Origin: Erodium maritimum
Taxonomy: Eukaryota > Streptophyta > Magnoliopsida > Geraniales > Geraniaceae
Direction: 5' to 3'
Assembly: GCA_963921825.1 (NCBI GenBank)
Contig: OY997593.1
Coordinates: forward strand, 72,038,513-72,102,512
DNA length: 64,000 nucleotides
Part shown: in pieces, positions 5,495 through 24,205 of the stretch
How the letters are laid out: each line of letters starts with the position of its first letter
Numbering within the stretch: position 1 is the stretch's first letter
Made by a program: the position numbers and the translations under genes
The notes under the pieces: generated by a model
Databases searched by the model: none
Seen by the model: only the letters and a program-made list of their open reading frames with translations
What the model was told of the DNA's origin: nothing

Positions 5495-5527
<33 letters not shown>
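5240..5527. other. Left flank of the large MULE, ending in (TA)n
   Basis: No gene is visible here. It is AT-rich sequence ending in a TA microsatellite (about 5498-5527) that directly abuts the element terminus. The right terminus is also followed by TA repeats (24157-24176), so the target was probably a TA microsatellite and the exact target-site duplication cannot be read. Confidence 0.6.
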
Positions 5528-5530
<3 letters not shown>

Positions 5531-5580
5531 ACGCTATCAGGTGCGAACCCCCTGTAATATGCGTACCTGCGAACTGTATC
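5528..5580 (+). repeat. Left terminal inverted repeat of the large MULE
   Basis: Inverted match to 24105-24156. The strongest block is ATCAGGTGCGAACCCCCTG with the matching CCTGCG segment about 20 bases further in. The subterminal 60-150 bases are unusually rich in GCGCGC and contain CACGCGC at 5667-5673. Confidence 0.85.
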
Positions 5581-6326
5581 AGGACCGTCGATCTATTAAT
5601 AGCGCGCGCGATTTACGGCTCAGAGCTAAGCGCGCGAAAGCGCGCGAATTGGAACAAATTCTAGGCCACGCGCCTCTTCTCAGGGGCAAAAATGGAATTT
5701 ACCATTTTTAATTACGCGCGCGGCCCAGATTCTCTCGCAAAACAAAATAATAATATCCGCAATCTAATCCTGGTCTTTTGAGATTTTAATTTAGACCAAA
5801 TTTTCATAAATAAAAACTGATAAACACAGAGCTTGTCGTTTTAAACTGGAAAAAAAATTAAAAAATTCTGATCCTTAAACAAATTCTTCTATATATGCAA
5901 AAAATAATAGCAGTATAATAAAAAAAAATTATGTCTGCTTTCTTTGCCTATCACTTCACCTCTTTAAATTTACGCAAACAATTTGTAAGTTTTCCGCAGA
6001 AGATTATATTGTTATCCGCAGACGAGAAAAACTGCATCCGCAGAAGATTTCATTTTGGTTTAGTTTGTTAGTTACGCAAACAGTTTGTTAGTTATCCGCA
6101 GAAGATTATATAGTTTCCACAGAAGATTATATAGTTATCCGCAGAAGATTACATCGTTTTCCTCATATGAGATATAGATGAAACAATTAAAGATTAAACA
6201 TGTTTAGGAACTCAACAATCCAACTAAACCCTACAATTTGCCTATATATACAGAAAAACTGCGCAAAGAAAACATAAACTCAACATCAACTCTTAGCAAA
6301 CCTCAACCCTATCCCAATTATAAACC

Positions 6327-6641
6327 ATGAATGCTTCCAACACCGAGAAGGGTAAGAGCACGAACATCAATCTTCTAACAAAGGAAGAGGTGCTGAAGAG
6401 GGGAGATGCCATATTCGCAAAATACAACGTTCTTCTCAATGTTGAGAAGGTCACAATGAAGCAGAAGAACTTAAAGGTGATGATGCTTGAGGCAAAACTT
6501 GATATCGATCTTCTTGTGGTTGAGACAGCCAAAATTGCCGATAACGACATGTCAGGTGACTGCATAACTATAGCCAAAGTCCTCTTGTGCATAGTGACAG
6601 AAGTTAACAGGGCACTGGATGTTGCTCTGGGTATGTTGTAG
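6327..6641 (+). CDS. MULE small helical protein 1 (104 aa)
   Basis: An intact short ORF with its own TATA box (CTATATATA, 6242-6250) 75-85 bp upstream, an A-rich leader and the good start context AACCATGA. After a polar N-terminus (residues 1-15) the chain is predicted to be almost entirely helical: KQKNLKVMMLEAKLDIDLLV, then the NDMSGD turn, then a second hydrophobic helix ending ALDVALGML. The helix, DMS turn and helix pattern recurs in the other small genes of this element. I do not recognise a named family. No G-box lies upstream, unlike several of its relatives. Function is unknown; a coiled-coil oligomerisation or adaptor role is only an inference. Confidence 0.6.
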   Translation: MNASNTEKGKSTNINLLTKEEVLKRGDAIFAKYNVLLNVEKVTMKQKNLKVMMLEAKLDIDLLVVETAKIADNDMSGDCITIAKVLLCIVTEVNRALDVALGML

Positions 6642-7009
6642 TTGGGTACCAAAGAGTCAATGAACGACCTAGAAGAAGATGGCTTTCTTCTACTCCTTTT
6701 TTGTATGGTGCTCTTTTGTTCAACCTGTGTCATGAATGAAAAGATTTCCTAGAAATATCATTTGCTCTATTTAGCTTTTCTGCAAACATTTTGTTCTTCA
6801 TCCGCAAACTATTATATCGATATCCGCAAAAGGATTTCAGTTTGATTTACTTATTTGCAAATTGGAAGGATTATCTACGCAAACTGGGGTTCTTATATTC
6901 GCAAACCAAAACAACTGTATCCACAAACCAAAATTAATGTTAAACATGATTGATTTCATATGTTGAAAATATTTAATTTCCACAAAAAAAAATTAAAAAA
7001 CTACAGTAA

Positions 7010-7660
7010 TTAAGCATCATCATCATCATCATCATCATCCCAGAAATCTTCTTCATCTTCAACAACTCCTTCCTCAGGATCCTCCCCATATGGGTCTATG
7101 TTGTCTTCTTCTTCCTCATCTCTCTCTTGCTCTTCTTCATCATCCTCTGCATGGACATCTTCTTCATCATCATCCAGACAATCTTCATCAACATAACAAC
7201 TATCTTCTTCATCATCCTCAGCGGGAGCAGGTCCGGGGGCAGTTGCGGGAGCAGGTCCGGGGGCACTTGCGGGAGCAGGTGCGGTCGGAGGTTCTTCTTC
7301 TTCCTCATTCTCCTCTTCTTCTTCATCCTCATTCTCCTCATTTTCTTCCTCATTCTCCTCTTCTTCTTCATTTTCTTTCTCATTGCCCTCTTCATCTTCA
7401 TATTCATCCGGGGGTGATTCATAATCAGGATCCCCCGGTTGAGGAATGTCGTACTCATTAATGAGAGGGTCATCATCATCATCAGAGGAGGAGGAGGAGG
7501 AGGAAGAAGGATTCAGCCTGCGCCTCTTTGAACAGACGTCGTCGTCGTCATCATCACTACTGAAGATTTGTGATGGTGGAGACTTGCATTCGAAAGATTG
7601 CCATTTGTCTCCATCACTGTTAGAATACAGAATAGATGGAGACTTGGGAGATGATGACAT
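7010..7660 (-). CDS. Asp/Glu-rich acidic protein (216 aa)
   Basis: This intact ORF is the only small gene of the element on the minus strand. Residues 1-60 are Ser/Pro/Asp-rich with a short basic patch, CSKRRRLN, that could be a nuclear-localisation signal. Residues 60-130 alternate E-runs with N, a Pro/Ala block follows (APAPASAPGPAPATAPGPAP), and the tail is D/E runs ending in eight Asp. The chain would be strongly acidic and disordered, like acidic activation or histone-chaperone tails, but no domain is recognisable. A TATA-like TTTATATTT lies near 7707-7716. The segment just upstream (7700-7830) is repeated three more times at 8840-9230. Simple-codon composition makes this the least certain gene of the array. 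Confidence 0.5.
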   Translation of the reverse strand: MSSSPKSPSILYSNSDGDKWQSFECKSPPSQIFSSDDDDDDVCSKRRRLNPSSSSSSSSDDDDDPLINEYDIPQPGDPDYESPPDEYEDEEGNEKENEEEEENEEENEENEDEEEEENEEEEEPPTAPAPASAPGPAPATAPGPAPAEDDEEDSCYVDEDCLDDDEEDVHAEDDEEEQERDEEEEDNIDPYGEDPEEGVVEDEEDFWDDDDDDDDA

Positions 7661-7940
7661 GGATATCTACTACGATAGGGATGATGAGAAAATAGTTGAT
7701 TTGTGTTTAAATATAAAGATACCAAAAGGGTATCAGAAAATTTGGAGAAATGGAACGATGCCATTAATTTGGGAAGCTTTTCGTTTGGCGCGAAGAGATT
7801 TTTGTAATGATGACAGAAGATATTGAAATGAAAGGATGAAATGAAAGGGCGGTTGTAGTCAGATCAAAAATGAAACGACGGTTGCGTGTATTCACATCAA
7901 AAATTAAAAATCATGATTAACTTACTTTTTACTGCATGCT

Positions 7941-7950
7941 TGACACGTGT
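7941..7950 (+). promoter_or_regulatory. G-box (TGACACGTGT) upstream of small gene 2
   Basis: CACGTG at 7944-7949 is 303 bp upstream of the ATG at 8247. A second CACGTG at 8131-8136 is closer (116 bp). The core and its TGACACGTGT context recur upstream of three other small genes at nearly the same distance. Confidence 0.55.
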
Positions 7951-8246
7951 TATAACCTGTTAAATTTCGGAAATTAATACTCTGAAAATACAAAATTCTA
8001 GTTTGCAGAAATAATGATTCTGTCTTACGTAAAATGATTTACCTGTTTGCGGAAATTACAATGCCGTTTTGCGAATAATGGACATTCTGTTTGCAAAAAT
8101 GTTCTTTCATCACATTACGTGCGTGTTGGGCACGTGTGCCATCAAAAACCCTAAATCAATACCCCTATAAATATACCCATTCTATCACAGATAATAAATT
8201 ATTCACACTCACATCTCTTCTAAATTATTAGATCTTATATACCAAA

Positions 8247-8513
8247 ATGGAGTCATCATCAAAAAGACTCAAAATCGAAGATCTTGACAAAGAACATCTT
8301 GCATCCGTGCGTGAGCTTCGTAACCTGAAGATGTCTATCATCAAATCCCATTTGATTTTAGTACAAAACAAGGTGGACAAACTGAAGGATGAATTATATG
8401 CAGAAGACATATCCAACGCGGATGAAGAACACAAGGAGTCCGTGAAGAGCATGAGGAAGACTCTCACGTTGTATAAGGCTTTTATTGGAACCGTTGTAGA
8501 AGGGCGCATCTAA
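8247..8513 (+). CDS. MULE small helical protein 2 (88 aa)
   Basis: A short intact ORF with a TATA box (CTATAAATAT, 8165-8174) and start context AAAATGG. The N-terminus holds a basic SKRLKIED patch. The body is one long amphipathic helix (VRELRNLKMSIIKSHLILVQ then KVDKLKDELYAEDIS), a turn, and a second helix (MRKTLTLYKAFIGTVVEG). It lines up by eye with proteins 6 and 7 through the shared pattern K(V)xxLxxEL...DMS...MxxTLKxIQxF. Family unknown. Two G-boxes lie upstream. Confidence 0.6.
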   Translation: MESSSKRLKIEDLDKEHLASVRELRNLKMSIIKSHLILVQNKVDKLKDELYAEDISNADEEHKESVKSMRKTLTLYKAFIGTVVEGRI

Positions 8514-8699
8514 GGAATTGCATGAACTTTCCCTACTGTTTTGATGTGTTTTTTGTTGGCTTTTGGTTCTTCTGTATAATGTCGTTATTTTTGTTGTTCT
8601 TCCTGACTACAGATGAATCAATGAAATGCTTTTTTGTAAAGTAAATATGCACAAAAATTTAGACAACATAATCCAATATACTACCTAGATTGCAAAATG

Positions 8700-9350
8700 A
8701 ACACAATGGTTCCGCAAACAAGATGCCTTGTTTTCACAAACTCGTAAATTCACAAACGCAAACTTCATAATTCGTTATTCTTTAATGTTTGAGAAAATAT
8801 TTCCTGTGGCTCAAGAGAGATTCACCAAAGATAAAAATATCAAATGGGTATCAGAAAATTTGGGGAAATGGGACGACGCCATTAATTTGCGAATCTTTTC
8901 GTTTGTCGCAAAGAGATTTTTGCAATGATGACAGAAGATATTGAAATGAAATCGCGAAATGAACACAGTGGTTCCGCAAACTAGATGCCTTGTATTCTAT
9001 TAATTTGCGAATCTTTTCGTTTGTCGCAAAGAGATTTTTGCAATGATGACAGAAGATATTGAAATGAAATCGCGAAATGAACACAATGGTTCCGCAAACA
9101 AGATACCTTGTATTCTCAACTGACGCCATTAATCTGCGAATCTTTTCGTTTGTCGCAAAGAGATTTTTGCAATGATAACAGAAGATATTCAAATAAAATC
9201 GCGAAATGAACACAATGGTTCCGCAAACAAGATTCCTTGTATTCTCAAACTCGTAAATTAACAAACGCAAACTTCCTAATTCGTTATTGTTTAATATTTG
9301 AGAAAATATTTCGTGTGTCTAGACAGAGATTTACTAAAGATACTTATCGA
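8700..9350 (+). repeat. Compound tandem repeat derived from the acidic-gene promoter
   Basis: A unit of about 120-125 bp, GCCATTAATTTGCGAATCTT through GCAATGATGACAGAAGATAT to the TTCCGCAAAC tail, occurs three times in a row (about 8870-8997, 8998-9117, 9120-9244). A single diverged copy lies at 7740-7850, upstream of the acidic gene. The flanking blocks 8709-8830 and 9219-9345 (ACTCGTAAATT, TTTGAGAAAATATTTC) are also copies of each other. ORFs here are repeat shadows, not genes. Confidence 0.75.
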
Positions 9351-9370
9351 AAAATGGTGAGATTGGGAAG

Positions 9371-9380
9371 TGACACGTGT
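9371..9380 (+). promoter_or_regulatory. G-box (TGACACGTGTC) upstream of small gene 3
   Basis: CACGTG at 9374-9379 sits in a palindromic TGACACGTGTCA context, 275 bp upstream of the ATG at 9649. Confidence 0.6.
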
Positions 9381-9648
9381 CAAGACACGATTGTATACTG
9401 CAAAGAGCCAGTGATTTTTATTTTGAGGATAATTTTATAATTGTTTGAAAATTTAATACACATGTAATACAAATCGTCAATATTGGATAAAACACTTGAT
9501 ATTCCTACCTTGAAAAGTAACTAACCACTAACCCCATTACTTTGAGCAAGATTACAATAATACCCCCTATGACCATTGCTATAAATACCACTACTGAGTA
9601 ACTACTTTCAAACATCTTTCACTCTTCAACTCAAAAAAAGCAACGAAA

Positions 9649-9918
9649 ATGGCCTCAATGAATGCTGAATGGGCTCGCATGAATGCCGATGATGAAGCCA
9701 GGCGTTTGGCTTCCATCCACCATTTATGGAAGCTCAAATACACCAAAATCCAATACAATATGATGATGATTGATGCGCAGGTGGTGAAGCTCCTGGCTGA
9801 AATAGAAACGGACGAAAACCTTACCTGGAACACAGAAGAAAGAGCTTCGAAAGAACGCATGCTTGAGAAACTGAGGGAGTATCAAGAATTCCTCGGGAAA
9901 ATAACTGTAGATCCCTAA
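9649..9918 (+). CDS. MULE small helical protein 3 (89 aa)
   Basis: An intact short ORF with a TATA box (TATAAATA, 9580-9587) 62-69 bp upstream, a CAACTC-rich leader and start context AAAATGG. The N-terminus is Ala/Met/Asp-rich. The main helix (LWKLKYTKIQYNMMMIDAQV then VKLLAEIETDENL) and the terminal helix (KERMLEKLREYQEFLGKI) reproduce the length and hydrophobic spacing of the other small proteins; the closing EKLREYQEFLGK resembles LKKIQDFFKT of protein 7. Function unknown. Being divergent from its neighbours but equal in architecture suggests an old paralogue rather than a recent copy. Confidence 0.6.
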   Translation: MASMNAEWARMNADDEARRLASIHHLWKLKYTKIQYNMMMIDAQVVKLLAEIETDENLTWNTEERASKERMLEKLREYQEFLGKITVDP

Positions 9919-10304
9919 GCCACATCCAGAAGAAGATTTGTGGTATCTAGTTTTTCATGCATGTCTTCTTTTATGTGTTTGTTGGGTGTTTCACACACCA
10001 TCTTTTCGTAATGAATCTATAAATATTCTCAAACTAGATGCTGTATTTTCTCAAACCATGCTTTCTGTATTCTCAACATGAGTGACATTATCCGCAAACA
10101 ATAACTTATGAATCCGCAACCTAGATATGAAATATCCGCGAACTACTTCGGTAAAATCCGCAAACTAAATGTGAAATACCCAAATAATCTGCTCGCTAAT
10201 AAAATAAAATGTTTCGATTGAACTTTCAAAATTGAATCTGGTTCGTCCATTGCGAATAATATATCGACAGTCCTAGATTAGCGCGCGAATTGACCCCAAC
10301 TTTC

Positions 10305-10314
10305 TCTATAAAAC
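10305..10314 (+). promoter_or_regulatory. Likely TATA box of the MULE transposase gene
   Basis: TCTATAAAAC lies about 570 bp before the first identifiable transposase codons. Between them is a stretch with repeated GAGATCGCACC units (10510-10590) that encodes an AEIAPEIAPEI-like run in one frame and may be a 5' exon, but I could not place an ATG or a donor. Confidence 0.35.
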
Positions 10315-10886
10315 CTCGAAATTCAAAAACGGAAAGTTCCTAAACAAGAAATAGGAAATCGAATTAAACACAGAGTTACAAAGTCTCTCGAAAATTTCTC
10401 TACGATTTTACAAGTATCAACCCTAGATCGGAGTTTTCTCGAAGAAATCTAGATCACGGACAAGGTTAAAAGACTGCGATTGTTCGAAACTTGATTCCAA
10501 AAACAAAATCTCATATCGCAGCTGAGATCGCACCAGAGATCGCACCTGAGATCGCACCTGAGATCGTCGAAATCGCAACAGAGGTCGCCGGAGATATTGA
10601 TTGATATCGCCGTATTTTGTGTTGTACGATCTTTAGCAACATATAATATTTGTTTCTTCTCAAACAATATATAAAATCTCATCCATGACAAATTCTCAAA
10701 CTAGGTGTTCAATATACCAGCAAACTAACTTGCTTATTTCCGCAAAGCTTAAATAATCTACTTTGCCTGTTACTATATACCACTGCCTGTATATGAATTT
10801 GAGTATATTATAACTATCTTATTCTATGTGTGATGTATATGCAATCAGAAATTATTACATCCTCAAACTGATCCGTATTTCGATGA

Positions 10887-13499
10887 ATATCAGCTGTAGG
10901 AACAGACAGTGACTGTGCTGCAGAATCAGATCTCCAAAACACTGTTCTGTTTTCTGCTGGAGGAACCAGGATATACTTGCCATCCTGCCAGCCTGAACGA
11001 ACCCCGTTTATAGGAAAGGAATTCAAGACACTGAATAAGGCGATAGATTTCTACCAAAATTACGCTAGACTGTCTGGATTCACTACAAGAAGGTCTACCG
11101 AGAAGAAGGATAAAACAAACAACATAAAGCTAAAGTACATGGTATGCTCCAAACAGGGTGAGATCCCTGAACAAAACAGTCCTCAAATTTCGAAGCCTAC
11201 AAAAAAGAGGAACAAATTGCTCACAAGAATTAATTGTGAAGCAATGATAAGGTTCACATTTGTTTCGGAGGAATTGGGATACAAAGTATCAAAATTTGTT
11301 GAAGGTCATAACCACCCTATGGTTGGAGCGGAGCACAGACATGAGATGAGAGGTAACCGACACATGGAAGGCAACCATGTTGAGTATATGAACTTTTGCG
11401 AGAGATCGGGAATAGGTCCCTCAAAGGCACACAGACTAATCAGTGAAACACGCGGAGGCCCCAGCCATGTTGGAGCTTTGAAGCAAGATTTCTTCAACTA
11501 CCACAGGGACTTGAAAGCCTATATTGGAGGAAGTGATGTTCAGATAATCCTTGACCAGTTCCGTGACAAGAAGGTAGCCAACAACAAGTTCTACTATGAG
11601 TACGATGTTGACCCAAGTGGAAGCCTCACTAAACTATTCTGGTGTGATGAAATAGCTATCAAGAATTACGAACTTTACGGAGATAATATTTCCTTTGACA
11701 CAACTTACAGGACTAACCAGTAAGCATAACTCGTATTCGTTAATCCATTGAAAAAGAAATTTTGAACATTATTCTTTATTAACGATTGATGTTTTGTAGG
11801 TACTCGATGCCATTTTGTCCGTTTACAGGAGTAGACAACTATGACAAATCTGTGACTTTTGGGCTGGGACTGGTAACACATGAGGATATCGAGTATTTCA
11901 CTTGGATGTTTAACGCTTTTCTGAAAGCGATGAATGGGAAGCAACCAATGTATCTGGTGACAGATCAAGACCCAGCAATGAAAGTTGCAATACCGAAAGT
12001 CATGACAGAGACTAAGCACAAACTCTGCATGTGGCACATTATGAATAAGATTCGTCTTACGGCCAGTCTCTATAAGAAAATCATATACTCTGTATCCACA
12101 TCTTATAATGCTTGTTTACACAAAACGTTTTATTCTTAATATGGTTCTCATAGTTAACTACTATGCGATGAGTTTATATTTTTATTCTCAAACTGTTATG
12201 TCTGTTTTCTCAATCTATGAAGACAAAATATCCATAGGCCACAGTATTGTCAATTTCTATTATTTATTTCTTCGACTTTACAAATCTTACAAAAAATGTT
12301 ACAGGTGCCTGGAAGTGTAACAAATGATACAGACTTTGAGAAAAAGGTTGGATTCCATAGTATACAACAACCTTATAGGCGCTGATGAGTTTGATGAAGA
12401 GTGGTCTAGCATCATTGAAGACTTCAATTTGCAGGACAACACTTGGCTCAATGGCATATTCGATCTGCGACAGAGTTGGATCCCAGCATACCATAGGGAT
12501 TTCCCAATGGGGTTGTTTATGAGAACAACATCAAGGTCTGAATCAGCCAACCAGGCCTATCAACAACTCACAGATCAGTACCTAAACCTTGTTCACTTGA
12601 TCTGGCGGTGTGGAGTGGTGATAGAGAACCAAAGGAGTGAGCATTTCAGTCTTATGATGCACAGCTACAATTCATATCCGGTGCTGAAGACAAACACGTG
12701 GTTTGAAGCGGATGCTTGGACCGTATACACACACACTGTGTTTGCTGACATACAAAAGCATATAGTTTACGCTCTCAACCGCTGCAGCTTGCCAGGCATG
12801 GATGACACCGCAGATGACACCATTGTCTATAAAGTCAGGGATTCGTCGATTATTAAAGATGGTAAGGAATTCAGGGTGACTTGGACGATGAGTACAAACA
12901 ACTTTGAGTGCAATTGCAACAAGCTTCTAACAACGGGCTATATATGTTCTCACATATTCTTTGCGCTGCAAAACACAACGTTAAGGAAGATTCCTAGGAC
13001 GCTGGTAAACCCGAGATGGTGTAAAGACACAAACTTGACAGCTACATTATCTTCTAATGGTGTTGCACCTGAAGGTCCTAGTCTGAAGGACGATGAAGTT
13101 ATGGATGCAGTGAAAACCAGGTTTACTGAAATGATTGGGACAGAAGATGCAGCAATTTCAAGTATTCGAGGATTGTTGGACACTCTAAATCGATACAGAG
13201 TGAAGACGGTTGATGACATAGTGAATGAGAATAAACTCAATAGAACAAGTTTCATAGCATCGGTGACAGGGATCAAATTACCAGAAATAATCACTGTCCA
13301 GCCTCCAAATATCACAAACACCAAGGGCTCTCGCTTGCGATCTGGGAGTAGAATGATCAGCAATAAAGAAAAGGCAATCAATGCTAGTAACAAGCGAAAA
13401 CGGCTATGCGCCACATGCCGCACATTGCAAGACCATGACAAAAGGACCTGCCCTCTGAATATGAATAAGAAGAAGAAGAAGAATAAGAAGAAGAAGTAG
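10887..13499 (+). CDS. FAR1/FHY3-type Mutator-like transposase, with a probable frameshift
   Basis: Three exons are recognisable: about 10887-11719, 11800-12091 and 12305-13499. Exon A encodes a FAR1-type DNA-binding domain (FKTLNKAIDFYQNYARLSGF, INCEAMIRF, VEGHNHPM). Exon B encodes the MULE catalytic domain (PFCPFTGVDNYDKSVTFGLG, LVTDQDPAM, LCMWHIMNKI). Exon C holds RTTSRSESAN, the SWIM zinc finger CNCNKLLTTGYICSH and a basic Lys-rich tail. Such transposases bind the element ends and move it, acting in the nucleus. Introns are supported by AACCA|GTAAGC...TTGTAG|G and TACTCT|GTATCC...TTACAG|G. With that second acceptor, VPGSVTNDTDFEKK must shift one base at the AAAAAGG run (12338-12345) to continue LDSIVYNN. 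Using the AG at 12331-12332 instead would avoid the shift but drop conserved residues. The first coding exon and start codon are not identified. Confidence 0.8.
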
Positions 13500-13940
13500 A
13501 AATGATGTATATTTTCAACTGCGGATTTCGATGTTTCAGTTTGCGCATATAGAGAATAAGTTTTGCGAATAAATAAACACTGTTTGATGGTACACTTGTT
13601 TGAGTTTTCCGAATTAATAAATTTCATTTCTGCACATGTTTTTATTTATATGAAATTTAATATAATATATTGTACACACATAAGGCAAAACAAGGACACA
13701 AGGACCTGCCCCGCTGAGTAAAAGTAGGAAGGAGAAATAGACTGATGGACATTATCGACTACGGATTTGGCTTTTTCTGTTTGCGGATATAGGTCAACTG
13801 TTTAGCGGATTCAATATAACAAATTGTTTGCGAATATTTCAAATTTCGTTCACTAAAATATATATAATGATTTGAGAATTTACTACTTTCGTTTTGCGTA
13901 CAAAAGGGAGGTGAAACGGTTTGTGGTAGACCAATCAAAT

Positions 13941-14018
13941 AATGACAGCGTGGAAACGTGGGCGAGAATTAATTGCTCCACTAACCCACGATGCCCTACA
14001 TATTCCCCTATATATACC
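13941..14018 (+). promoter_or_regulatory. Duplicated promoter of small gene 4
   Basis: It contains TAGACCAATCAAAT (CCAAT-type), GACAGCGTGGAAACGTG and a TATA box CTATATATACC at 14008-14018. The same block recurs at 14728-14818 ahead of gene 5 with few changes, showing that promoter and gene were duplicated together. Confidence 0.6.
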
Positions 14019-14081
14019 CAAATAATGTATGCTCTATACTCAACACTCAACTCTTAGAATACCCAATTTTACTCTGAAAAA

Positions 14082-14399
14082 ATGGCATCGTCAAGCAGCA
14101 GGAAGCGTAAAAGCTATGAAGATGAACTTGACGAACGAGAAAGGAAGCTGAAGGAGCAGAACAAGAAGGACCGAAAACAAAAGCGTCACATCAAACACGA
14201 GAAGTTCGTGACGAGCTTCAAGGAAATCAAGCACAAGCTTTCTGAGATCGAGCTTGAGCTTCAAATATTGGTCTCGGATGTTGGCGAGGAGCTCTGCACT
14301 GACATGAGCACTGAAGAGGTGCTTGCAAACACAGCCTTCACCAGGAAGATAACCGAAGTGATCATAGCTGTGAATAAGGCTATGAAACTGGTGGTATAG
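14082..14399 (+). CDS. MULE small helical protein 4 (105 aa)
   Basis: An intact ORF starting in AAAAATGG context 64 bp after the TATA box. Residues 1-45 are very basic and charged (SSSRKRKSYEDELDERERKL, KKDRKQKRHIKHEK), suggesting nuclear or nucleic-acid contact. Residues 46-70 form a leucine-spaced helix (FKEIKHKLSEIELELQILV), then the TDMSTEE turn, then a C-terminal helix ending NKAMKLVV. It is a close tandem paralogue of gene 5 downstream. No known domain recognised; the basic region plus coiled-coil layout is bZIP-like in outline only, without the bZIP asparagine-arginine signature. Confidence 0.65.
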   Translation: MASSSSRKRKSYEDELDERERKLKEQNKKDRKQKRHIKHEKFVTSFKEIKHKLSEIELELQILVSDVGEELCTDMSTEEVLANTAFTRKITEVIIAVNKAMKLVV

Positions 14400-14727
14400 G
14401 AATAGCAAACCATATTTTCTTCATTCCTTTTGTCTGTTCTTAACCAGTTTAAAGTAATTAAAAAATCGTTTTCCTTAAAATAGTTTATATTTCTCCTTCG
14501 ATTATATATAATTCCGTTATTTATGTTACACGCGAAACAGATTATTAGAATCAGCAAACCATGATCTCTGTATCCGCAAACAAGGATCTATGTTTTCACC
14601 TTAATTATATTCGCGAAACATAATAACATTATCCGCAAACTACAAGATCGTATACGCAAACACCAAGTAAAGAGAAAATACAACTTCGTTATTGCGTACA
14701 AAGAGGAAAGTGGACCGGTATGTGGTA

Positions 14728-14818
14728 GACCAATCAAATATTGACAGCGTGGAAACGTGTAGGAGAATTAATTGCTCCACTAACCTACGATGCCCTAGAT
14801 ATTCCCCTATATATACCC
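14728..14818 (+). promoter_or_regulatory. Duplicated promoter of small gene 5
   Basis: A near-identical copy of 13921-14018: TAGACCAATCAAAT, GACAGCGTGGAAACGTG, GAATTAATTGCTCCACTAAC, then TATA box CTATATATACC at 14808-14818, 64 bp before the ATG at 14882. Confidence 0.6.
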
Positions 14819-14881
14819 AATACTGTATCCTTCTATACTAATCTCTCAACTCTTCCTAAAACCAATTTTACTCTGGAAAAA

Positions 14882-15199
14882 ATGTCGTCCTCAAGCAGCA
14901 GGAAGCGTAGAAGTTATGAAGATGAATTCGACGAACGCGAGAGGAAGCTAGAGGAGCAGAATAAGAAGGACAAAAAACAAAAGCGTATCATCAAGCATGA
15001 GGAGTTTTTGATGAAGTTCAAGGCAATAGGGCGTCAGCTTTCTGACATTGAGCTTGAGCTTGAAATTTTGGGTATGGAAGTAGGCGAACAGCTGTGCACT
15101 GACATGAGCTCCGAAGAAGCGCTTGCAAACTCAGCCCTGAACAGGAAGATAACCGAAGTGATCATAGCGGTGTACAAAGCTAAGAAACTAGTGGTATAG
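14882..15199 (+). CDS. MULE small helical protein 5 (105 aa)
   Basis: I chose the ATG at 14882 because it aligns with the start of gene 4 and lies the same 64 bp after the TATA box; the longer frame starting at 14741 would run through the promoter. It begins SSSSSRKRRSYEDEFDERER and matches protein 4 along its whole length, with substitutions concentrated in the middle helix (FKAIGRQLSDIELELEILGM) and the same DMS turn (TDMSSEEALA). Equal length and no frame damage suggest that selection maintained both copies after duplication. Confidence 0.65.
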   Translation: MSSSSSRKRRSYEDEFDERERKLEEQNKKDKKQKRIIKHEEFLMKFKAIGRQLSDIELELEILGMEVGEQLCTDMSSEEALANSALNRKITEVIIAVYKAKKLVV

Positions 15200-15902
15200 G
15201 CATAGCAAGCCCTAGTCTCTTTTGTTTCCCTTTATATGTTCTTAACCAAATCTTATTAATCAATAACAAAATCTTTTTCCTTAAATACATTTATATTTCG
15301 CTTTCAAATTATGTATGATTCCATGATTTGTGTTACACGCGAAACAGAATATAACTATCAGCAAACCATGATATCTGTATCCGCAAACTAGAATCTCTGT
15401 ATTAAAAACTTTAAGTCAATAATAATAGGCATAATAATAGGCAAATTTACAATATTAGCAAACCAGTATATATGAATCCGCAAACTACAAGTCCGTATCC
15501 GCAAAAAACATGGTAGAGAAAAAAATAATAGTATTAACAAAACAGGATCTCTGTATCCGCAAACTACAAGGCCATATATGACCATTATACGCATCATCGT
15601 CTTCCTCCACATTTTCTTTATCCTCTTCTTTCTCATCATCGTCATCGTCACTGATGATAATAGGCCAATCCTCTTTCTATTATGGTGACATGAAATAATT
15701 AAAAAAAAGGTCTATGATGACATGATTTGTAGGGTTAAAAAATTGATTTAAACTAAATCAAACGGCGGTGAAAAGACATAACAACGCCTACATGAGATAA
15801 GATCTTGGTGCACTCAAAGAGGATTTTAGTAATGATGTACTGTAACCGTGGTAACTTAACCGTCAGATTTTGAAATCATACCATCTGATTTTGGGGAACG
15901 AT

Positions 15903-15915
15903 TGACACGTGTCCT
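15903..15915 (+). promoter_or_regulatory. G-box (ATTGACACGTGTCC) upstream of small gene 6
   Basis: CACGTG at 15906-15911, 297 bp upstream of the ATG at 16203. The surrounding 250 bp, including AACTTAACCGTC and GAGAATTATGAG, recurs upstream of gene 7. Confidence 0.6.
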
Positions 15916-16202
15916 CTACAAGATCTTATCGTATCACATTCCGATAGACGTAAATCAGCATTTAGTTTGAGAATTATGAGTTATTGATTGCGAAAAACAT
16001 ATATATTTTTAGCGGAATCCTTACCAGTAAACTAATCTATATATAATTAGAACTCTACTTTTAACGAAATAACGATAATGTCACCGCAAGATTTCAACTA
16101 TAAATACCCCCCCCCCCCCCTTATATTTCTTAACCCTAGAACTCTTCTTCAATTTCAAAACCTCTTCTCTAATAACTTCAAACCACCAGATCTGCAAAAG
16201 AG

Positions 16203-16550
16203 ATGGCCTCCAACAGGAAACGCACCAGATCTCAAGGTAACGTTTGCACCGAAGAAGCTGTGGAATGTACCATTGAGGAACGTTCTAAGAAGATGCGTGA
16301 AATGGAGCAAGCGGCTATGGAAATGGCAATGGAGATTCGCGAAGTGAAGTTGGCACTAATCCAGTGCCACTTTTTTCTGATGGAGGAGAAGGTGGAAAAC
16401 CTTATCCATGATCTGGAAGTGCTTGACATGAGGAACGGAAATGCAAAGCTTAACGAAGATAGAGACAAGATGATGACGGCACTGAAACCGATTCAGGATT
16501 TCTTCAAAACCATGGCCATAGTACAAGACGAAGGCACATCCGGCCCATGA
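16203..16550 (+). CDS. MULE small helical protein 6 (115 aa)
   Basis: An intact ORF with TATA box CTATAAATACC (16098-16108), an intervening C-homopolymer (16110-16120) and a 5' leader shared with gene 7. The basic N-terminus SNRKRTRSQG is followed by a long Glu/Met-rich helix (MREMEQAAMEMAMEIREVKL), the family core (LIQCHFFLMEEKVENLIHDL, then VLDM), and a C-terminal helix MMTALKPIQDFFKTM with a polar tail ending EGTSGP. It is a clear tandem paralogue of gene 7. No named family. Confidence 0.65.
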   Translation: MASNRKRTRSQGNVCTEEAVECTIEERSKKMREMEQAAMEMAMEIREVKLALIQCHFFLMEEKVENLIHDLEVLDMRNGNAKLNEDRDKMMTALKPIQDFFKTMAIVQDEGTSGP

Positions 16551-17052
16551 AGGATGTAATCATATTTTCGCTTTTATCATGTCAATCGTCTTTTGATGTT
16601 TTTGTTTTGGGTTTTGAACACTTGGTTTCTCAATGAAATGGTGATTAGTATCTACCTATTCTACTGCTAAAGTAATCTATATAAATTCGCAAAAGAAATA
16701 TTATGTATTCTCGAAGACGTAGTTTTAATTTCGTAAATCAGAACATGATTGCTCGCAAACGAAAATTATTGAAATGATAACATGTTTGCACACAACTAAA
16801 TATATGATCAAAATGCAGACAATAATTATATTCGCGAAACATAATAACAGTATCCGCAAACAACAAGTCCGTATCCGCAGACAATGATCTCTGCAACCGC
16901 AAACTACAAGTCCTTATCCGCAAAACTAAGTGCGATAAGATCTTCTTGCATTCAATTGGGATTTTACTAATGATGAAATATAACCGTGAAAATTTAACCG
17001 TCTGATTTTCAAATCATATCGATTACACGATATGTCTAATTTTCGTAACGAT

Positions 17053-17065
17053 TGACACGTGTCCT
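17053..17065 (+). promoter_or_regulatory. G-box (ATTGACACGTGTCC) upstream of small gene 7
   Basis: CACGTG at 17056-17061, 291 bp upstream of the ATG at 17347, in a promoter block duplicated from (or to) 15840-16110. Confidence 0.6.
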
Positions 17066-17346
17066 CTACAATATCTTACAGTATCACATACCGGTACACG
17101 TAAATAAGCATTTAGTTTGAGAATTATGAGATACGGATTGCGAAAATAAGGTATATGTTTTGCGGAATTATTATTAGTTAACTAATCTGTCTATAATTAG
17201 AACTCTACTTTAAACATAATAACGATAATGCCACCGCAAGAATTCAACTATAAATACCCCCACCCCTATATCACTGAACCCTACAACTCTCTTTCAATTT
17301 AAAATTCTCTTCTCAAATAACTTCAAACCACCAGTCTGCAAAAGCG

Positions 17347-17664
17347 ATGACCTCAAACAGGAAACGCACCAGAGAGGAAGGAAACGTTTGCAACGCAGAA
17401 GCTATGGAACGTACCAGGGAGGAAGCCGCTTTGGAGTCTAAAATACAGTTACACAAAATAAGGTTGGCACTATGCCAGATCCACTTTTTCCTGATGCAGG
17501 AAAAGGTGGAAAGCCTTGCCAATGAACTGCAAGTGCTTGACATGAGCAACTCGACTGAAAAGCACAAGGAAAATAGGGACATGATGATGGCGACACTGAA
17601 AAAGATTCAAGACTTCTTCAAAACAATTGAGGTAGACATGGAGCAGGGCACATCCAACCCATGA
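17347..17664 (+). CDS. MULE small helical protein 7 (105 aa)
   Basis: An intact ORF with TATA box CTATAAATACC (17248-17258). It has the same basic start as protein 6 (SNRKRTREEGNVC), the core helix IRLALCQIHFFLMQEKVESL, turn VLDMSNS, closing helix MMATLKKIQDFFKTIEVD and tail EQGTSNP. Compared with protein 6 it lacks about ten residues of the Glu/Met helix. Both keep the same positions of charged and hydrophobic residues. Function unknown. It is the last of the seven plus-strand small genes; the protease gene on the opposite strand begins 550 bp further on, so the two transcripts converge. Confidence 0.65.
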   Translation: MTSNRKRTREEGNVCNAEAMERTREEAALESKIQLHKIRLALCQIHFFLMQEKVESLANELQVLDMSNSTEKHKENRDMMMATLKKIQDFFKTIEVDMEQGTSNP

Positions 17665-18212
17665 AAGATGTAGTTATATTTTCCGTATTATCATGTCAAT
17701 CGTTTTTTCATGTTTTTGTGTTTTGTTTTGAAAACTTACTTTCTCAGTGAATGTATGACTAGTATCTACTTATCAATATGAAAGTCACCTACATTTCACT
17801 CGCAAAAGATATTGCATAATCTGAAACAAGGAACCCCACTTTCTCGAACCAAGGATTGACAATTCGCAAAACAGAAAAACAGTTCCGCAAACTAGATATT
17901 GTATATTCGCAAAACAAAAAACACATAATCTCAAAAAACAGAGGAACCTAGGTTTCGCAAACCAAGGATAGCGTTTCCGCAAAACAGAATACCAATACCC
18001 GCAAACTAGACACTATACATTCGCAAAACAGAAAACACATAACCTCAACCAACAACTTGTTTATCCTACAATACAGCATATTCAGAAACAAAAGATCTCA
18101 TAAATTCTGAAAATAGTACACACATTATTCTCAAACAATATAGCATAAATTCTCAACCAAAAAAAATTGTCGTTTTTGAAAACAAACACCAGTAATCAAA
18201 AAGAGTAATTCA

Positions 18213-21200
18213 CTAAGCTTTATGACGTTCGCATGGTAATAAGGCTTTATACTTGACACTAAATTTGAATGTGGCCTTCTTCTTTTTGAAATAATCTTTG
18301 ATATTCTGCTCAATTCCTGGCCACAGGCTGTTCTTCTCAAATGTGATCAACTTAAAGAGGAATCTTTTCCTCAATAACTCGATTTGTGCAGCCTACAAAA
18401 TCAAAATTTAAAGATCAAATCTATACTCATTGCTATATACTGACAAAGAAATAATTGTTGGTTTAACTTACATCATTAACGTTCAATTCTCCTGCCCAAT
18501 TCTCATTGCCAAGGTACGATTCCATGTGCCACATAGCATACACCCCACAATCCATATGATTGTCGTTAGATTCCCATGGTACATGTAACCGATCAATCTT
18601 ACCGTTGAAAATTTTCAGAGCTAGATCTTTATCACTTTTTGATATGACCTTGCAAATTTTAGACCTCTACGCAAATCAAAAACACCAAAGAAAAATAAAT
18701 AAAAACAAAAATGAATAGATAGACAGTAATCAAACACATACTCAAAGAGAAAAGAATACATACCAATGTATAGTGAATTCTTTCATAACGAAGATCATCA
18801 TCAACCTTTTCTTTCACATTGTCAATAATAATTGAATTTCCATTCTTCATATCAATGCATAACAGTGTGAAGTGATTGCTCTTAAAAGCAACTATGAAAA
18901 CCTGTAGAAAATATAAAAAATGCATTAGCATATCAGCAAAACACATATTCACTATCAGCAAACTACATTTTCATTACCAGCAAAACATGTATTCACTTTC
19001 CGCAAACTTGATAGAAAAGATTCGCAAACAAGAAAATCCATACCCTCAAACCAGATATTGCGTGACTCAAACATGTAAACGTTAATTCTCAAGCAAGAGT
19101 GCGTATAAACGCAAAACATACAAACCTTACCCGCAACCAACATATTGAATATTCTAAAACCAACCATGAATTATACTTACCAAGTCCAACTTCTTCCATG
19201 AAAAAGAAGGGAACTCCTTAGTTTCAAATTCGAAATTTTCATCAAAAGCTACATCTTTTTTATGTGCCGTAAGCGTAGCCTACAAAATAAAAATATTAAT
19301 AACAAAAACATATTAAAATAATTCAAACTATAAACGTAATCAACAAAGAAATTGTGCAAACTATCCTTACACTAAGATTAGCTGAAAAGAAGAACCGGTT
19401 AGGTGATGAATCACTCTTGATAGTTTTCAGATGATTCAGATAGTGACACCACCCATTAATGATTTCCATTTCAATCCATGAATCCTTTTTGAAAGAAATA
19501 AAGCCACCCTTGGTAATATAATTGTCAGAGCACTGAAACATAAAAGCCCTGCATTCACAGAGAGAAAAAGCCTATTCACTGTATTTGCAAAAATAAAATA
19601 TCAAAACAAAATAAGGGGAAAAACATATTTTACTTACCAATCCTCGGTTTTGCTTTTATTCAGCACCCAATCTGAAACACAATCCTCAACCTCCAGAATA
19701 TCGGACCAATAATCTGTTTGACGATCAACGTACGGAGAACACAGAAATTTAGACGGTGCAATCAAACGAGGTAAAGGTTGTTTTTCTGGGGTTTCCCTTA
19801 ATAAAGATGCCTTGCTACATCCAATTGACGTAAAACTATTGCCACTTGCAGCAGGTTTCTTCACAACAGGGGGATTTTTCTTAACACCACCTTGAGGTTT
19901 TTTTGCTGCAACAGTATGGGGTACTTTCTTCTTGGGGACAGCAGCGGGGCCTTTCTTACCGGGTGCACGAGCGGGAGCTCTCTTCTTCGGTGGATCAATA
20001 ATTGAGCCAGGCTCCACATGACCAACACCATCAGTCGACTTCTTAGCAGGATGCATGAGACCTTTTTTATCAGGAAGAGGTATGCCAACAGGGCGTTGGA
20101 CTATGGATTCACGCAATTTTGCCATTGCAAGTTCAGGATTCTCGTCAACATTCTCAGAGACCTCTTTCCCACCAATAGAACGATTGATATTTTGGTCAAC
20201 CCGTGCAGTAACAATTGGCGGGGGTTGAGTCTTGCAAGCTTGATTAACAGGTGGATCATTGTTGACATTTTTTTCGACAACAATTATATTGAGTGGCTCG
20301 GGTTGCTCTTGAAGTGTCTGAAAAAAGTCATTGACAGACGGAGACCCGTTGACATTTCCTTGACTGCATTCTATAGTAAGTGGGTCTGATTGCACTGCAA
20401 GAGCCAAACAATCATCTTTGTTAACAACATCTGAAGCTTCACGTTCCGCGATTGGATGATCAACAACCATGTCACAAGCTTCCTTCCCAATACCATAAGC
20501 AACAGAAATAGCGTCAAACTCATCGCCAACACTGTTATTCTTTTCTGGCTCAGTTTGTTCTGCAACAATATTATCCACAGGGGCTGCATCATTACTTGCA
20601 AACAATTTCCGTACCACATTATCGCATTCAGGGCTTGACAATGTAGTGGATCCAGCAGGGCATGGTGAAAGAACATTGGCAGGCGATTTTTGGGATGGTG
20701 AAAGAAGTCTGAACGATGGTGGAGTAACGGCACGAGCAGGTGGCTTCTCTTCTCCTTTGTACCCTTCCCCAACGCGTGTTGCTGCTTCAATCAATTTCTC
20801 AATGGTCTCAATAACCCCGGGTAGATTAAACCATGAGTCTTGTGACAGCAACACACTTTGTGTGTCAGGCATGGCCTCTTCGGGATTTTTTTTTCCCGGT
20901 CAAACCATCAAACAGGGTTGACATTGTCTTGAAACACTCAGTATTGGGATCATCGATGTGCCCTTCAACCAACAACTGATGTCATTCCAAAAAACCTTCT
21001 GCAACCTTATTCCCTGCTATTCGAAACCTTTCTGCAATCCTCTGAATACGATAAAAAAAATCATGTTAATGTGATTAAATGCAAACAAATAAAACACAGG
21101 GTATGCATCAATTACGAAACACATCTTCAAAGCAAAATGTGCATATTTGCACACAATAAACATAGGCACAAATCACATGCAGCAAATACTCAAAACTGTT

Positions 21201-23719
21201 TCGCAAAACAGAGTGCGCATACTCGCAAAACAAAGAATCACAATCCGCAAACTAGGTAAAGCATACACGCAAAACATAAATTCACAATCTGCAAACAGGG
21301 TAAGCATATTAGCAAAACATATATTCACAATCCGCAGACTAGGTAAAGCATATTAGCAAAAAGGTCAATCAATAACAGAGAATGCATCAACTAAAACACA
21401 CATCTGCAGACCAAAATGAGCATATCCGCAAACTGGGTAAAGCATATTCGCAAAACATATATGCACAATCCGCAAAACACAGTATCACTAAACGAAGAAC
21501 ATACATTCACTATTCGCAGAACATATATTCACTGTTCGTAGAACATAAATTCACTGTCCGCAAACTAGGTAAAGCATATTCGCAGAACATATGTTCACTA
21601 TTCGCAAAAAAAAGAAGTCAATCAATAAACCTAACTGTACATTTGAAAAACATAATTCCCCCACAAAAAAATTAATTACATAATAGAATACCTCTGCAGA
21701 ACACCTTTCACTATGAAGGGGGGGGGGGTATTCGGGGCCGGCGGATCTCCACCATTTCTATCACCACTTTCATTATTCCTATTTACGTTAGGTGGTGGAT
21801 GCTGAGCAGCATTATCTTCCTCCCTAACACGTGGAGGACCCTCCCTCTGTATGTGACTCATTCCAAATGACTCACACTGTAATTCATCACCGACTCTTTT
21901 GTTCACCAATGCAGTATTCCATCCAATCAAAGACGGCCACGCCCTAGGAACCTCACATGTGCTGACTTCAACACGATCAAGATAAAACAACTGCATCATT
22001 GAAAAGAAAAGACATGTCAGATGAATATAACATAACAGTTTATTAGATATAAAATGCAATACGTTAAAATAATAAATAAACTTACCAACAAGAAAGTGAT
22101 TGATCCAGAAAAATTCTTTGAACCATCGGGTTTTAACCATAGTTTTTTTTGTATCCACAAGTTTCTTGACTAAAAACTTGCACCAGTTAAAATCTTGTAT
22201 GTGAGATACATCAACGATAGAACGGAAGCATGACTGATTCACATAACCCTCATTCCCCGAATCGATCATGCAAGTCACAAACAACATCATGAAGTTTCTT
22301 TTAAAATCATCTCCCCCTTGAAGTTGCGCCTTCATCTGATCAACCAATTGCTTACTGGTGATAAGACGCTTGATCTCCCCTTTGTCTTTTGTATCGAACT
22401 GCTGCTGCCACAATTTAAGTTCATCACTACACAGGGTGGCCAACTTATCGACTATGACGTCGCGCACACCATTTGGAATGCCCAAAGTTTCATGCACTTC
22501 ATTCTCTGTGATACGCAATTTGGCATCTGGGAATTCCAATGATGAGCTAAGATGGTTATACTTAGACACCAGGTAATATCCAATCTTGCTTGGAATGATC
22601 TTCACAGCCAAATGAAGAATGTGCCCAAACCCAATTTCGCGGACTGCTTCTTGTTGGCATTTATTCAAACTCTCCACCAACTCAACCAATCTCTTTGGAG
22701 ATGATCTGGTCTTCAAAATATCATCCACGCCAACCTTATCAGATAACGGGACAACTCTATCAGACTCACAACCCTTGGCGCGCTTAACATTCTTCTTCTC
22801 AACAACTAATTCTCCACCTCTCTTCTTTCCAGCTATAGCAGGTCGGACAGCTACATCGAGACATTCACGAACCTCAGCTACCTTCTTCTTCTTAATTGAA
22901 AGTCTTCGTTTATTTTTATTCTTAATAGACTTCTGCTCCTTCAACATATTAGCAAGAGTTGTATTTCCTTCACCAACATCAGCCTCTGTGGATGGCCTAT
23001 CCATTAAAAGAAGAGGTACCACTGTATCCAGAGTTTTATCTATAATTCACAAACAAGGGTTATCATTTCAGCAGTACAGACAATATACAAAAATATTGCA
23101 TATTCTAGGGAAAGAAAAACAGTGCCCGCAAACAAGATACTACATATCCGCAAAACATAAATTCACTATCCGCAAAACATAAATTCACTATCCGCAAACA
23201 AGGTAAAGCATATTATCAAAACAAGTCAAACAATAACAGGGTATGCATCAACTACAAAACACATCTGCAAACCAAAATGTGCATATTTGCATACAATAAA
23301 CATACGCAAATATCAAATGCAGGATTATTCAAAACTGTTTCTCAAACCAGAGTGCGCACGCTCGCAAAACATAAATTCTTTATCCGCAAATTGGTTAAAG
23401 AATAATCGCAAAACATGAATTGATTATTCGCAAAACAGAAAAACAAAGTCCGCAAAACAAGATACTCATAACACAAACCCCAAAAACTCTACCAACAACT
23501 TGGCTTTCCTCAAAAGTAGATCAAAATCATCTCATATTTGAATAATTTCATGGTATTTCATTATTCACTTGAAATGGTGTACACTAAAAGCAAAACACAA
23601 GCACTCTGAAAACATGACACCTATAAAAAATCCGCAAACTACAAACACTATATTCTCAAATTACCTGATTCGATGTCCCTGTTGGAGAATGTTGTAGATT
23701 CAGCAACCTTGTTCTTCAT
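18213..23719 (-). CDS. Ulp1-like (peptidase C48) SUMO-protease gene of the MULE, multi-exon
   Basis: Proposed exons, minus strand: 23719-23665 (MKNKVAESTT...), 23039 to about 22087, 21990-21692, 21039-19638, 19548-19371, 19279-19181, 18901-18764, 18666-18472, 18392-18213. The N-terminal part resembles the domain seen in plant MULE-borne Ulp1 proteins (IGFGHILHLAVKIIPSKIGY, LRITENEVHETLGIPNGV). The middle is a disordered Pro/Lys/Ala linker. The C-terminal part has the C48 triad: SNHFTLLCIDMKNG (His, Asp) and HMDCGVYAMWHME (catalytic Cys at 18547-18549). The family cleaves SUMO from proteins or matures it. Lesions: an in-frame TGA at 20983-20985 and a one-base shift in the nine-base A/T run at 20886-20894. 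The exon 2/3 junction phase also fits poorly. This copy is therefore probably non-functional unless spliced around. Confidence 0.75.
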
Positions 23720-24104
23720 TCTCTAAAAACAGATTACTATAATCAAAAAGCTAGATAACCAAACGAACAAGATTGAATCAAAACCCTAAAAACACCAAAA
23801 ATTGTAACTCAGCACAATGAACTATTGAAATTCACTTCGAAATCGCGCAGAAGACGAATATCAAGGCAATGGAAGCTCAAAAAATCAGATTCCGAAATGT
23901 TCGTTTCGCTAAAAACTCGATTCTGCAAGTGTTTTGGTGAGCACGAAACGTTTCTGCGCGAACGGGTAGATAAAAGTACGTTTATAACCCCGAACCATAG
24001 CAAAACAGTTGAAATGAATCCCACGCGCGACTTATTTACGACGCGTGCCACTGATGACGCGTTCAAATCTGCGCCATCGCGAAATTCACATCGGACGGCC
24101 ATAA

Positions 24105-24156
24105 CGAAGTGCGCAGGTTCGCACCAAATCAGGGGGTTCGCACCTGATTGCTCTCC
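24105..24156 (-). repeat. Right terminal inverted repeat of the large MULE
   Basis: Inverted partner of 5528-5580. Read inward it gives ATCAGGTGCGAACCCCCTG and then GCGAACCTGCGCACT. Subterminal DNA is GC-rich and contains CACGCGC at 24022-24028, about 130 bp from the end, close to the 139 bp seen at the left end. Confidence 0.85.
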
Positions 24157-24205
24157 TATATATATATATATATATGTAAAAGGCTATTATGCCAATTACC
24201 CCGTA

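Follow-up and report, generated by a model that had tools for sequence, protein, structure and literature searches.

Introduction

Plant Mutator-like elements (MULEs) that have terminal inverted repeats (TIRs) and sit in TA tracts are represented by MuTAnT and AutoMuTAnT of Medicago truncatula and by SaTar and AgS-MULE of guayule and rice (PMC4486113, PMC5907723), and the AutoMuTAnT transposase is Jittery-like (PMC4486113). Ulp1 protease genes lie downstream of and opposite to the transposase in the KI-MULE/Kaonashi elements of Arabidopsis and in the ULP-MULEs of melon, rice and grapevine, and in melon and grapevine both MULEs with TIRs and Jittery-like ones have also been described as carrying ULP genes (PMC2528002). 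Extra MULE open reading frames (ORFs) have been described, one or two per element, such as mudrB next to mudrA in MuDR (PMC6446971), and the VANDAL elements carry the accessory genes VANB and VANC beside the transposase (PMC5735166, PMC10398659). TA-targeting MULEs with a Jittery-like transposase, Ulp1 in MULEs and extra MULE ORFs are therefore already known. Here we describe an 18.6-kb MULE of Erodium maritimum, located at positions 5528-24156 of the 64,000-nt stretch of DNA that was analysed (C6:72038513-72102512, hereafter the window), in which a Jittery-like transposase and an Ulp1-like protease are accompanied by a cassette of seven short proteins, eight in some copies.

AutoMuTAnT has 4.9 kb and a single ORF and AgS-MULE1 has 5.3 kb, against 18.6 kb here (PMC4486113, PMC5907723), and the portions of the MuTAnT and AgS-MULE descriptions consulted mention no Ulp1 protease, small-gene cassette or motif array, unlike the element described here. 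A preliminary description of this DNA, made from the sequence alone, had likened the element to the Kaonashi type; the likeness stands for an Ulp1 gene in a MULE, opposite to the transposase, but does not extend to the termini, since KI-MULEs are non-TIR elements, and the consulted parts of the KI-MULE and ULP-MULE account mention no small accessory-gene array (PMC2528002). MuDR shares with the present element an accessory ORF and the Jittery group an N-terminal FAR1 domain, but these elements have one extra ORF or none and, in the sections consulted, neither Ulp1 nor a paralogous small-gene array (PMC6446971). In VANDAL21 (Hiun) and VANDAL6 a short motif is tandemly repeated through the noncoding DNA, resembling the arrays found here (PMC5735166, PMC10398659), and VANC21 and VANC6 act on such motifs (PMC5735166); the VANDALs differ, as far as the consulted text goes, in the motif, in degenerate TIRs and in having two accessory genes, and VANC homology (Pfam DUF1985) was not found here. 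A review of giant transposons gives, in the part consulted, up to 7 kb for Pack-MULEs and, for a red alga, 4-5 ORFs in its enlarged CACTA elements (PMC6431247). In text searches of open-licence PubMed Central papers for Ulp1-bearing, TA-targeting, multi-gene or anti-silencing MULEs, none of the listed titles and abstract openings presented a MULE with a small-gene cassette.

Our preferred reading, to which we assign a probability of about 60%, is that of a TIR MULE with a small-protein cassette, whose short proteins would act as nuclear helpers and in which an element-encoded protein would bind arrays of the motif YCGCAAA, keeping the element hypomethylated and expressed. Its basis, documented below, is the structure of the element, the recurrence of the gene set between the same termini, tandem duplication, constraint on the small genes s3 and s4/s5, and the motif arrays.

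Results

Structure and target site

The termini at 5528 and 24156, read directly, pair over 27 nt with 4 mismatches (49 nt and 90% according to the repeat finder, which counted the flanking TA tract in). They enclose a transposase with the MULE domain (PF10551, E 4e-21), as in the MULE superfamily, and a FAR1 domain (PF03101, E 2.6e-16; both Pfam) that lies N-terminal to it, the arrangement of the Jittery type, as well as a protease gene on the strand opposite to the transposase. Pfam, the ORF list and the termini agree here with the preliminary description, which had proposed matched TIRs around a FAR1/MULE transposase, a C48-like protease and eight short genes (Table 1). The motif CACGCGC, which we take to be a FAR1/FHY3 site, was found just twice in the whole element, once near each end.

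TA tracts were detected at 17 of the 19 left ends found (21 copies) and at all 11 right ends examined, as in the TA-microsatellite-targeting MuTAnT, SaTar and Micron. Because (TA)n stands on both flanks of nearly all copies seen, a target-site duplication of 8-11 bp is indistinguishable. The window thus contains a single copy of a TIR MULE that is large and multicopy, belongs to the FAR1 (Jittery-like) kind and targets TA microsatellites. The genes and elements of the host are plant-type. In the right flanks of two copies (L013-L014, L011-L012) sequence resembling another terminus (AATCAGGTGC, AATCAGGTAC) follows the TA tract, as if elements were stacked at microsatellites; such stacking has been described for guayule and rice MULEs, in the part of the report consulted (PMC5907723).

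Recurrence of the gene set

The genome searched was the host assembly (763 Mb, 40 contigs). The best 40 of 270 candidates for the left 373 bp of the element all had 94-100% identity, and the best 40 of 256 for the right 373 bp had 97-100%. Counting that of the window, 23 left ends out of 40 have a listed right end at a distance of 7.5-41 kb, and the other 17 are without a partner among the right ends listed (best 40 of 256). The gene s1 is present downstream of 38 of the 40 left ends (within 16 kb; one at 12.5 kb, the others within 1.5 kb), s2 within 20 kb of 34 and s4 or s5 within 45 kb of 33. Among the best 150 of 985 transposase matches, 139 are accompanied within 20 kb, on the side expected, by s1, s2 or s4/s5, as are 99 of the top 100. 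The large middle exon of the protease gene gave 103 matches in 101 scored places (best of 504 candidates), 96 of which have s1, s2, s4/s5 or the transposase within 40 kb in the expected opposite orientation, with 3 in the same orientation. Downstream of s1, s2 follows within 6 kb in 99 of the 150 listed matches (median 1858 bp), against 0.43 of 150 expected for random placement even at 30 kb. The counts for s1, s2, s4/s5, s3 and the transposase cover the best 150 matches each, with the numbers of missing partners as upper bounds. In the host genome, the small genes are thus present in other copies of the element and did not turn up as ordinary host genes among the matches listed, so that neither of the two outcomes which the preliminary description had named as refuting it occurred.

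Ten of the 22 other paired copies were compared; nine measure 18-20 kb, and the tenth measures 7.5 kb. The gene order is common to all nine other long copies, partial losses included: s5 is partial and s6 and s7 are absent in c4_21.9, s7 is absent in c2_38.3, s6 is broken in c1_122, s3 is shortened in c1_102 and s5 in c1_125. Single stops in s2, s3 or s7 were detected in some copies, and three copies have an extra s2-like gene. The small frames, all described as intact at first, are so in the window copy, but not in the copies with these losses, shortenings or stops.

Two diverged copies, here called subfamily 2, have the same gene order through s7, with a single s4-type gene each; one has stops in s6 or s7, and the other has the start of s7 only. 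Their 20-kb stretches match the window element only to ~17.8 and 17.4 kb, suggesting a loss of the protease gene, which was ruled out by the genome search: in both copies the protease exon was located ~25.8 kb from the left end, at identities of 83% and 84%, and it contains one stop in the second copy. Subfamily 2 (L036-L037, L038-L039) has ~8-12 kb unlike the window element in the interval from s7 to the protease gene.

These comparisons bear on the view that the locus is a nested mosaic of unrelated mobile elements or genes that came by chance to lie between two termini. The length, long for a MULE, and left-right pairs 33.9 and 41.4 kb apart would agree with it, but the order recurs in nine of nine other long copies and in the two subfamily-2 copies, and one motif is spread over the noncoding parts. 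We consider a mosaic extremely improbable and rejected it on the gene order repeated in independent insertions.

Some matches stand alone: no other listed match lies within 40 kb of 29 s1, 16 s2 and 11 s4/s5 matches (best 150 each). Five of the 29 isolated s1 matches were examined: the left terminus is present in three, similarity to the element reaches to within 33 bp of its end in a fourth, and the fifth is without a terminus. These five belong to a set of eight divergent s1 loci, six of which have the left terminus (at most 4 mismatches); in the remaining two, similarity to the element starts 33 bp inside the end in one and only at window position 6198 in the other.

The small genes and their probable promoters

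The ORF list contains seven short ORFs of 88-115 amino acids (aa) on the plus strand and one acidic ORF on the minus strand. Two families, partly grown through tandem duplication, appear to account for all seven small genes. Family A consists of s4, s5 and, weakly, s1 (hhalign 27% and 11% for s1 to s4/s5), and family B of s2, the extra s2-like gene, s6, s7 and, less surely, s3 (hhalign 51%, 15% and 39% to s2, s6 and s7). Homology between families A and B was not supported, with an hhalign probability below 1% for A-B pairs. The duplicates s4/s5 lie ~800 bp and s6/s7 ~1.1 kb apart, and the flanking DNA is duplicated too in both cases.

Pfam gave nothing near the cut-off for any of the seven small proteins, NCBIfam no match of weight for five of them (including s5, whose match had E 0.0052 and scored 15.9 bits where the cut-off is 624, and was dismissed as chance) and PDB no weighty match for s7 or both family alignments (best E 0.09), and Rfam at gathering thresholds and a tRNA scan were empty. 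The initial view of the small proteins as helical had its basis in composition only and was not upheld: the hydrophobic moment of single sequences did not exceed shuffles, and when it was averaged across paralogues, one segment out of four stood out nominally (55 of 2000 shuffles).

TATAWAWA was found at -69 to -104, a range chosen after the sequence had been read, in all seven small ORFs, against a background of 0.028, so that each short protein is probably expressed from its own TATA promoter. The G-box sequence GACACGTG has four palindromic places (7942, 9372, 15904 and 17054), 277-305 bp upstream of s2, s3, s6 and s7. It was counted 7 times versus 0.8 expected and CACGTG 7 times versus 2.9, and ACGTG is not enriched in the element (20 versus 20.9 expected).

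Transposase and Ulp1-like protease

Near 12.33 kb two transposase frames overlap in the window copy, and the frame seems to change there, a reading from one copy. The spliced protease exons, joined at GT-AG sites, gave a weak Peptidase_C48 match (E 0.0034, 17.7 bits, under the cut-off of 20.7), and three single-exon protease frames gave no match in Pfam. The His, Asp and Cys motifs of the protease, presumably with catalytic roles, are retained in all nine copies covering them. The protease-domain exons of the window copy are stop-free, and the N-terminal part of the gene is probably interrupted in this copy.

Selection on the small genes

For the 8-11 recent copies, dN/dS was calculated by NG86 and pooled over pairs that are not independent and have few differences. 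Among these copies, we obtained 0.36 for s1, 0.56 for s3, 0.20 for s4, 0.79 for s5, 0.45 for s6, 0.49 for s7 and 0.50 for the acidic ORF. The comparison of the window with the two subfamily-2 copies gave 0.11 and 0.22 for s3, 0.32 and 0.26 for s4, 0.78 and 1.07 for s1, and 0.19 and 0.25 for the transposase. The tandem duplicates s4 and s5 have a dN/dS of 0.22 (z -4.5), the pooled value of s1+s3+s4+s6 is 0.45 (z -3.1), and the s2-like gene has dN 0.097 and dS 0.087 between the subfamily-2 copies. The dN/dS values (those of s2 and s6 are completed below) therefore show purifying selection on s3 and s4/s5, but s1, s2 and s6 are fast-evolving by the same measure.

The preliminary description had placed all small genes under selection, in contrast to a damaged transposase and protease. 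Selection was confirmed for s3 and s4/s5 (0.11-0.32), but not for s1, s2 and s6 (about 0.6-1, with most frames kept), and the contrast is not general, given the transposase values of 0.19-0.25 and the protease motifs retained in nine of nine copies. The damage inferred in the window copy was right for the apparent frame shift of the transposase and the probable interruption of the protease N-terminal part, but does not reach the stop-free exons of the protease domain.

Stop-free matches among the best 150 each amount to 140 for s1, 143 for s5, 125 for s2, 137 for the transposase exon and 118 for s3 (by eye), and the protease exon is stop-free in 62 of 103 listed matches. Six of the seven listed s1 matches at 59-65% aa identity are stop-free; in a neutral simulation with the noncoding indel rate, a frame without stops or indels survived in 0.9% of runs at 0.1 changes per site and in none of 2000 at 0.2. 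Between copies we counted 0.88 indels per kb in the small ORFs (with 13 of the 16 events located where s3 begins), 0.85 in the transposase, 1.05 in the protease, 4.28 in noncoding DNA and 10.07 in the acidic ORF.

The cassette could be a passenger, made of short host genes captured once in the manner of Pack-MULEs, duplicated inside the element and hitch-hiking with it, so that the apparent constraint would be left from the host phase or be caused by recent amplification. The closeness of the recent copies (dS about 0.015-0.09), a dN/dS of 1.01 for s2 among them and the frequency of decayed copies are consistent with this, but constraint was also found between subfamilies at dS 0.15-0.27 (s3, s4) and between s4 and s5 at dS 0.62. 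Because it is seen between subfamilies and between duplicates, the constraint on s3 and s4/s5 acted probably inside the element. The TATA box retained at each small gene likewise speaks against a passenger, and no isolated source gene was identified among the best 150 matches each for four small genes, most isolated matches being outside the examination. Pack-MULEs carry host gene fragments and no transposase, whereas the transposase is present here and the matches listed for the four small genes gave no host source. Altogether we regard the passenger explanation as quite unlikely.

YCGCAAA arrays

YCGCAAA occurs 61 times in 10,289 bp of noncoding DNA of the element, twice in 8,340 bp of coding DNA and 7 times in the remaining 45,371 bp of the window, the coding limits being approximate for the transposase and the protease. 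In 200 runs of a first-order Markov control, the noncoding part had 3.5 occurrences on average and never more than 10. The same orientation is shared by 53 of the 61 motifs, and 22 bp makes up 17 of the 37 spacings below 150 bp. The arrays extend into the protease introns and do not cluster at the element ends; such tandem repetition of a short motif throughout noncoding DNA is the VANDAL/VANC-type organization. The nine other long copies have 47-61 plus-strand YCGCAAA each, and the subfamily-2 stretches, ending before the protease gene, have 31 and 26. The copies differ from one another by gaps of 21-22, 43-44 and 66 nt (counted per copy), which lie at the arrays and at two other noncoding places.

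In En/Spm, TNPA is a helper of the transposase. The small proteins may likewise be transposition cofactors that aid the transposase, with the arrays as extended binding sites of the transposition complex and silencing uninvolved, an alternative that we consider rather unlikely. It would suit the strong constraint on two neighbours, the transposase and s3, and the confinement of CACGCGC to near both ends, and mudrB, the second MULE ORF, is apparently needed for integration, according to the part of the source consulted (PMC6446971). The arrays, however, span the noncoding length and the protease introns too instead of being concentrated at the ends, seven or eight short genes are many for such a role, and s1, s2 and s6 change fast.

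Other features of the window

Outside the element, three long paralogous Cys/His-rich ORFs, which we take to be DC1-like, lie on the minus strand at 27641-29446, 42030-43538 and 46846-48336. A foldback element at 30214-30928 has 140-nt arms that are 96% complementary, and sequence related to it flanks a divergent copy of the MULE (L030).

Table 1. Features of the Erodium maritimum MULE (window positions).
Feature	Position	Strand	Basis or remark
(TA)n microsatellite target, left	5499..5527	.	read directly
Left TIR	5528..5554	+	sequence reading and repeat finder
CACGCGC, first	5667..5673	+	139 bp from left end
s1, 104 aa, family A	6327..6641	+	ORF list, genome matches
Acidic low-complexity ORF, 216 aa, weakest of the eight	7010..7660	-	ORF list; indel-rich between copies
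s2, 88 aa, family B	8247..8513	+	ORF list, genome matches
s3, 89 aa, family B, lowest small-gene dN/dS	9649..9918	+	dN/dS, genome matches
Transposase first part, FAR1 domain	10887..11720	+	open frame, start approximate
Transposase MULE-domain exon	11800..12136	+	Pfam; 3' limit approximate
Transposase last exon	12310..13499	+	frame apparently shifts near 12.33 kb, window copy
s4, 105 aa, family A	14082..14399	+	ORF list, dN/dS
s5, 105 aa, family A, tandem duplicate of s4	14882..15199	+	ORF list, repeat finder
s6, 115 aa, family B	16203..16550	+	ORF list
s7, 105 aa, family B, tandem duplicate of s6	17347..17664	+	ORF list, repeat finder
Ulp1-like protease domain, five exons	18218-18392, 18472-18666, 18764-18901, 19181-19279, 19371-19548	-	splice sites, Pfam
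Protease gene large middle exon, 412 aa from ATG, K/P-rich	19637..20899	-	ORF list, genome matches
Protease gene N-terminal part, 442-aa ORF, intron probably inside	21679..23004	-	ORF list
YCGCAAA arrays, noncoding DNA	5528..24156, dense 17865-18054, 18953-19142, 21198-21611, 23123-23461	.	motif counts
CACGCGC, second	24022..24028	+	128 bp from right end
Right TIR	24130..24156	-	sequence reading and repeat finder
(TA)n microsatellite target, right	24157..24175	.	read directly

Discussion

Selection on some of the short genes suggests that they help the element to move or to stay switched on. In the preferred reading, the short proteins would be element-encoded helpers in the nucleus. The YCGCAAA arrays would be bound by a protein that the element itself encodes (probably the protease fusion, in the manner of VANC and KIU, or some of the small proteins), and this binding would keep the element hypomethylated and expressed. 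The small proteins would then be partners or specificity factors, and the fast change of s1, s2 and s6 may reflect a conflict with host silencing. KIU-type VANCs contain Ulp1, according to the consulted part of a review (PMC13317346), and we rank anti-silencing first and transposition cofactors second because of the analogy with VANC and the Ulp1-carrying KIU. More tentatively, a TIR MULE might have built a multi-gene counter-silencing kit, with two duplicating small-protein families and an Ulp1-fusion protein jointly reading the 22-bp-phased array; it would be a convergent or ancestral counterpart of VANC, with several small proteins in conflict with host silencing.

A number of observations weigh against the anti-silencing reading. 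DUF1985 was not detected in the protease N-terminal part by the Pfam search, so that VANC homology is unproven, and the arrays may be slippage products without function. The 7.5-kb copy (c2_36.7) has s1, the acidic ORF and s2 and nothing more of the set, and a ~3.4-kb deletion derivative with both ends (d62_c3_14, L030) has s1 as its sole intact small gene; because such deleted copies persist with few small genes, the full set is not required in cis. For two older sister transposases (85% and 76% identity), both decayed, 9 and 8 kb were examined and contained no small gene. The homology of the 85% sister (MULE exon; L040) spans only window positions 10296-13792, and it is perhaps a simpler, older element.

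The rates of change include further such points. Besides the s2 value of 1.01, the recent copies gave 0.29, 1.19 and 0.66 for parts of the transposase, the second of which is the unfavourable one, and 0.81 and 0.67 for parts of the protease, with 0.73 for its domain. For s6, the dN/dS was 0.63 and 0.56 between the window and subfamily 2, and 3.17, on very few changes, between both subfamily-2 copies. The s1 comparison of the window with six copies at 59-65% aa identity gave 0.84-1.18, and with two copies at 84-87% it gave 0.69; within the group of six divergent copies the range was 0.22-1.38. The eight divergent s1 loci, none with internal indels and one with the ATG lost, were picked from matches already listed without stops. 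Stops were found in 25 of 150 s2, 32 of 150 s3 and 41 of 103 protease matches listed, and many copies are therefore decaying.

Plant MULEs have been described, in the literature as far as consulted, with one to three genes, and the element presented here has about ten, some of them kept by selection. It is a successful element, with the best 40 left ends at 94-100% identity, at least 150 transposase places and an element-wide array that resembles the targets of VANC. It would offer a natural test of why some DNA transposons have accessory proteins and of whether sequence-specific anti-silencing arose outside the VANDALs, and because copies and subfamilies are many, the co-evolution of protein and motif is directly measurable.

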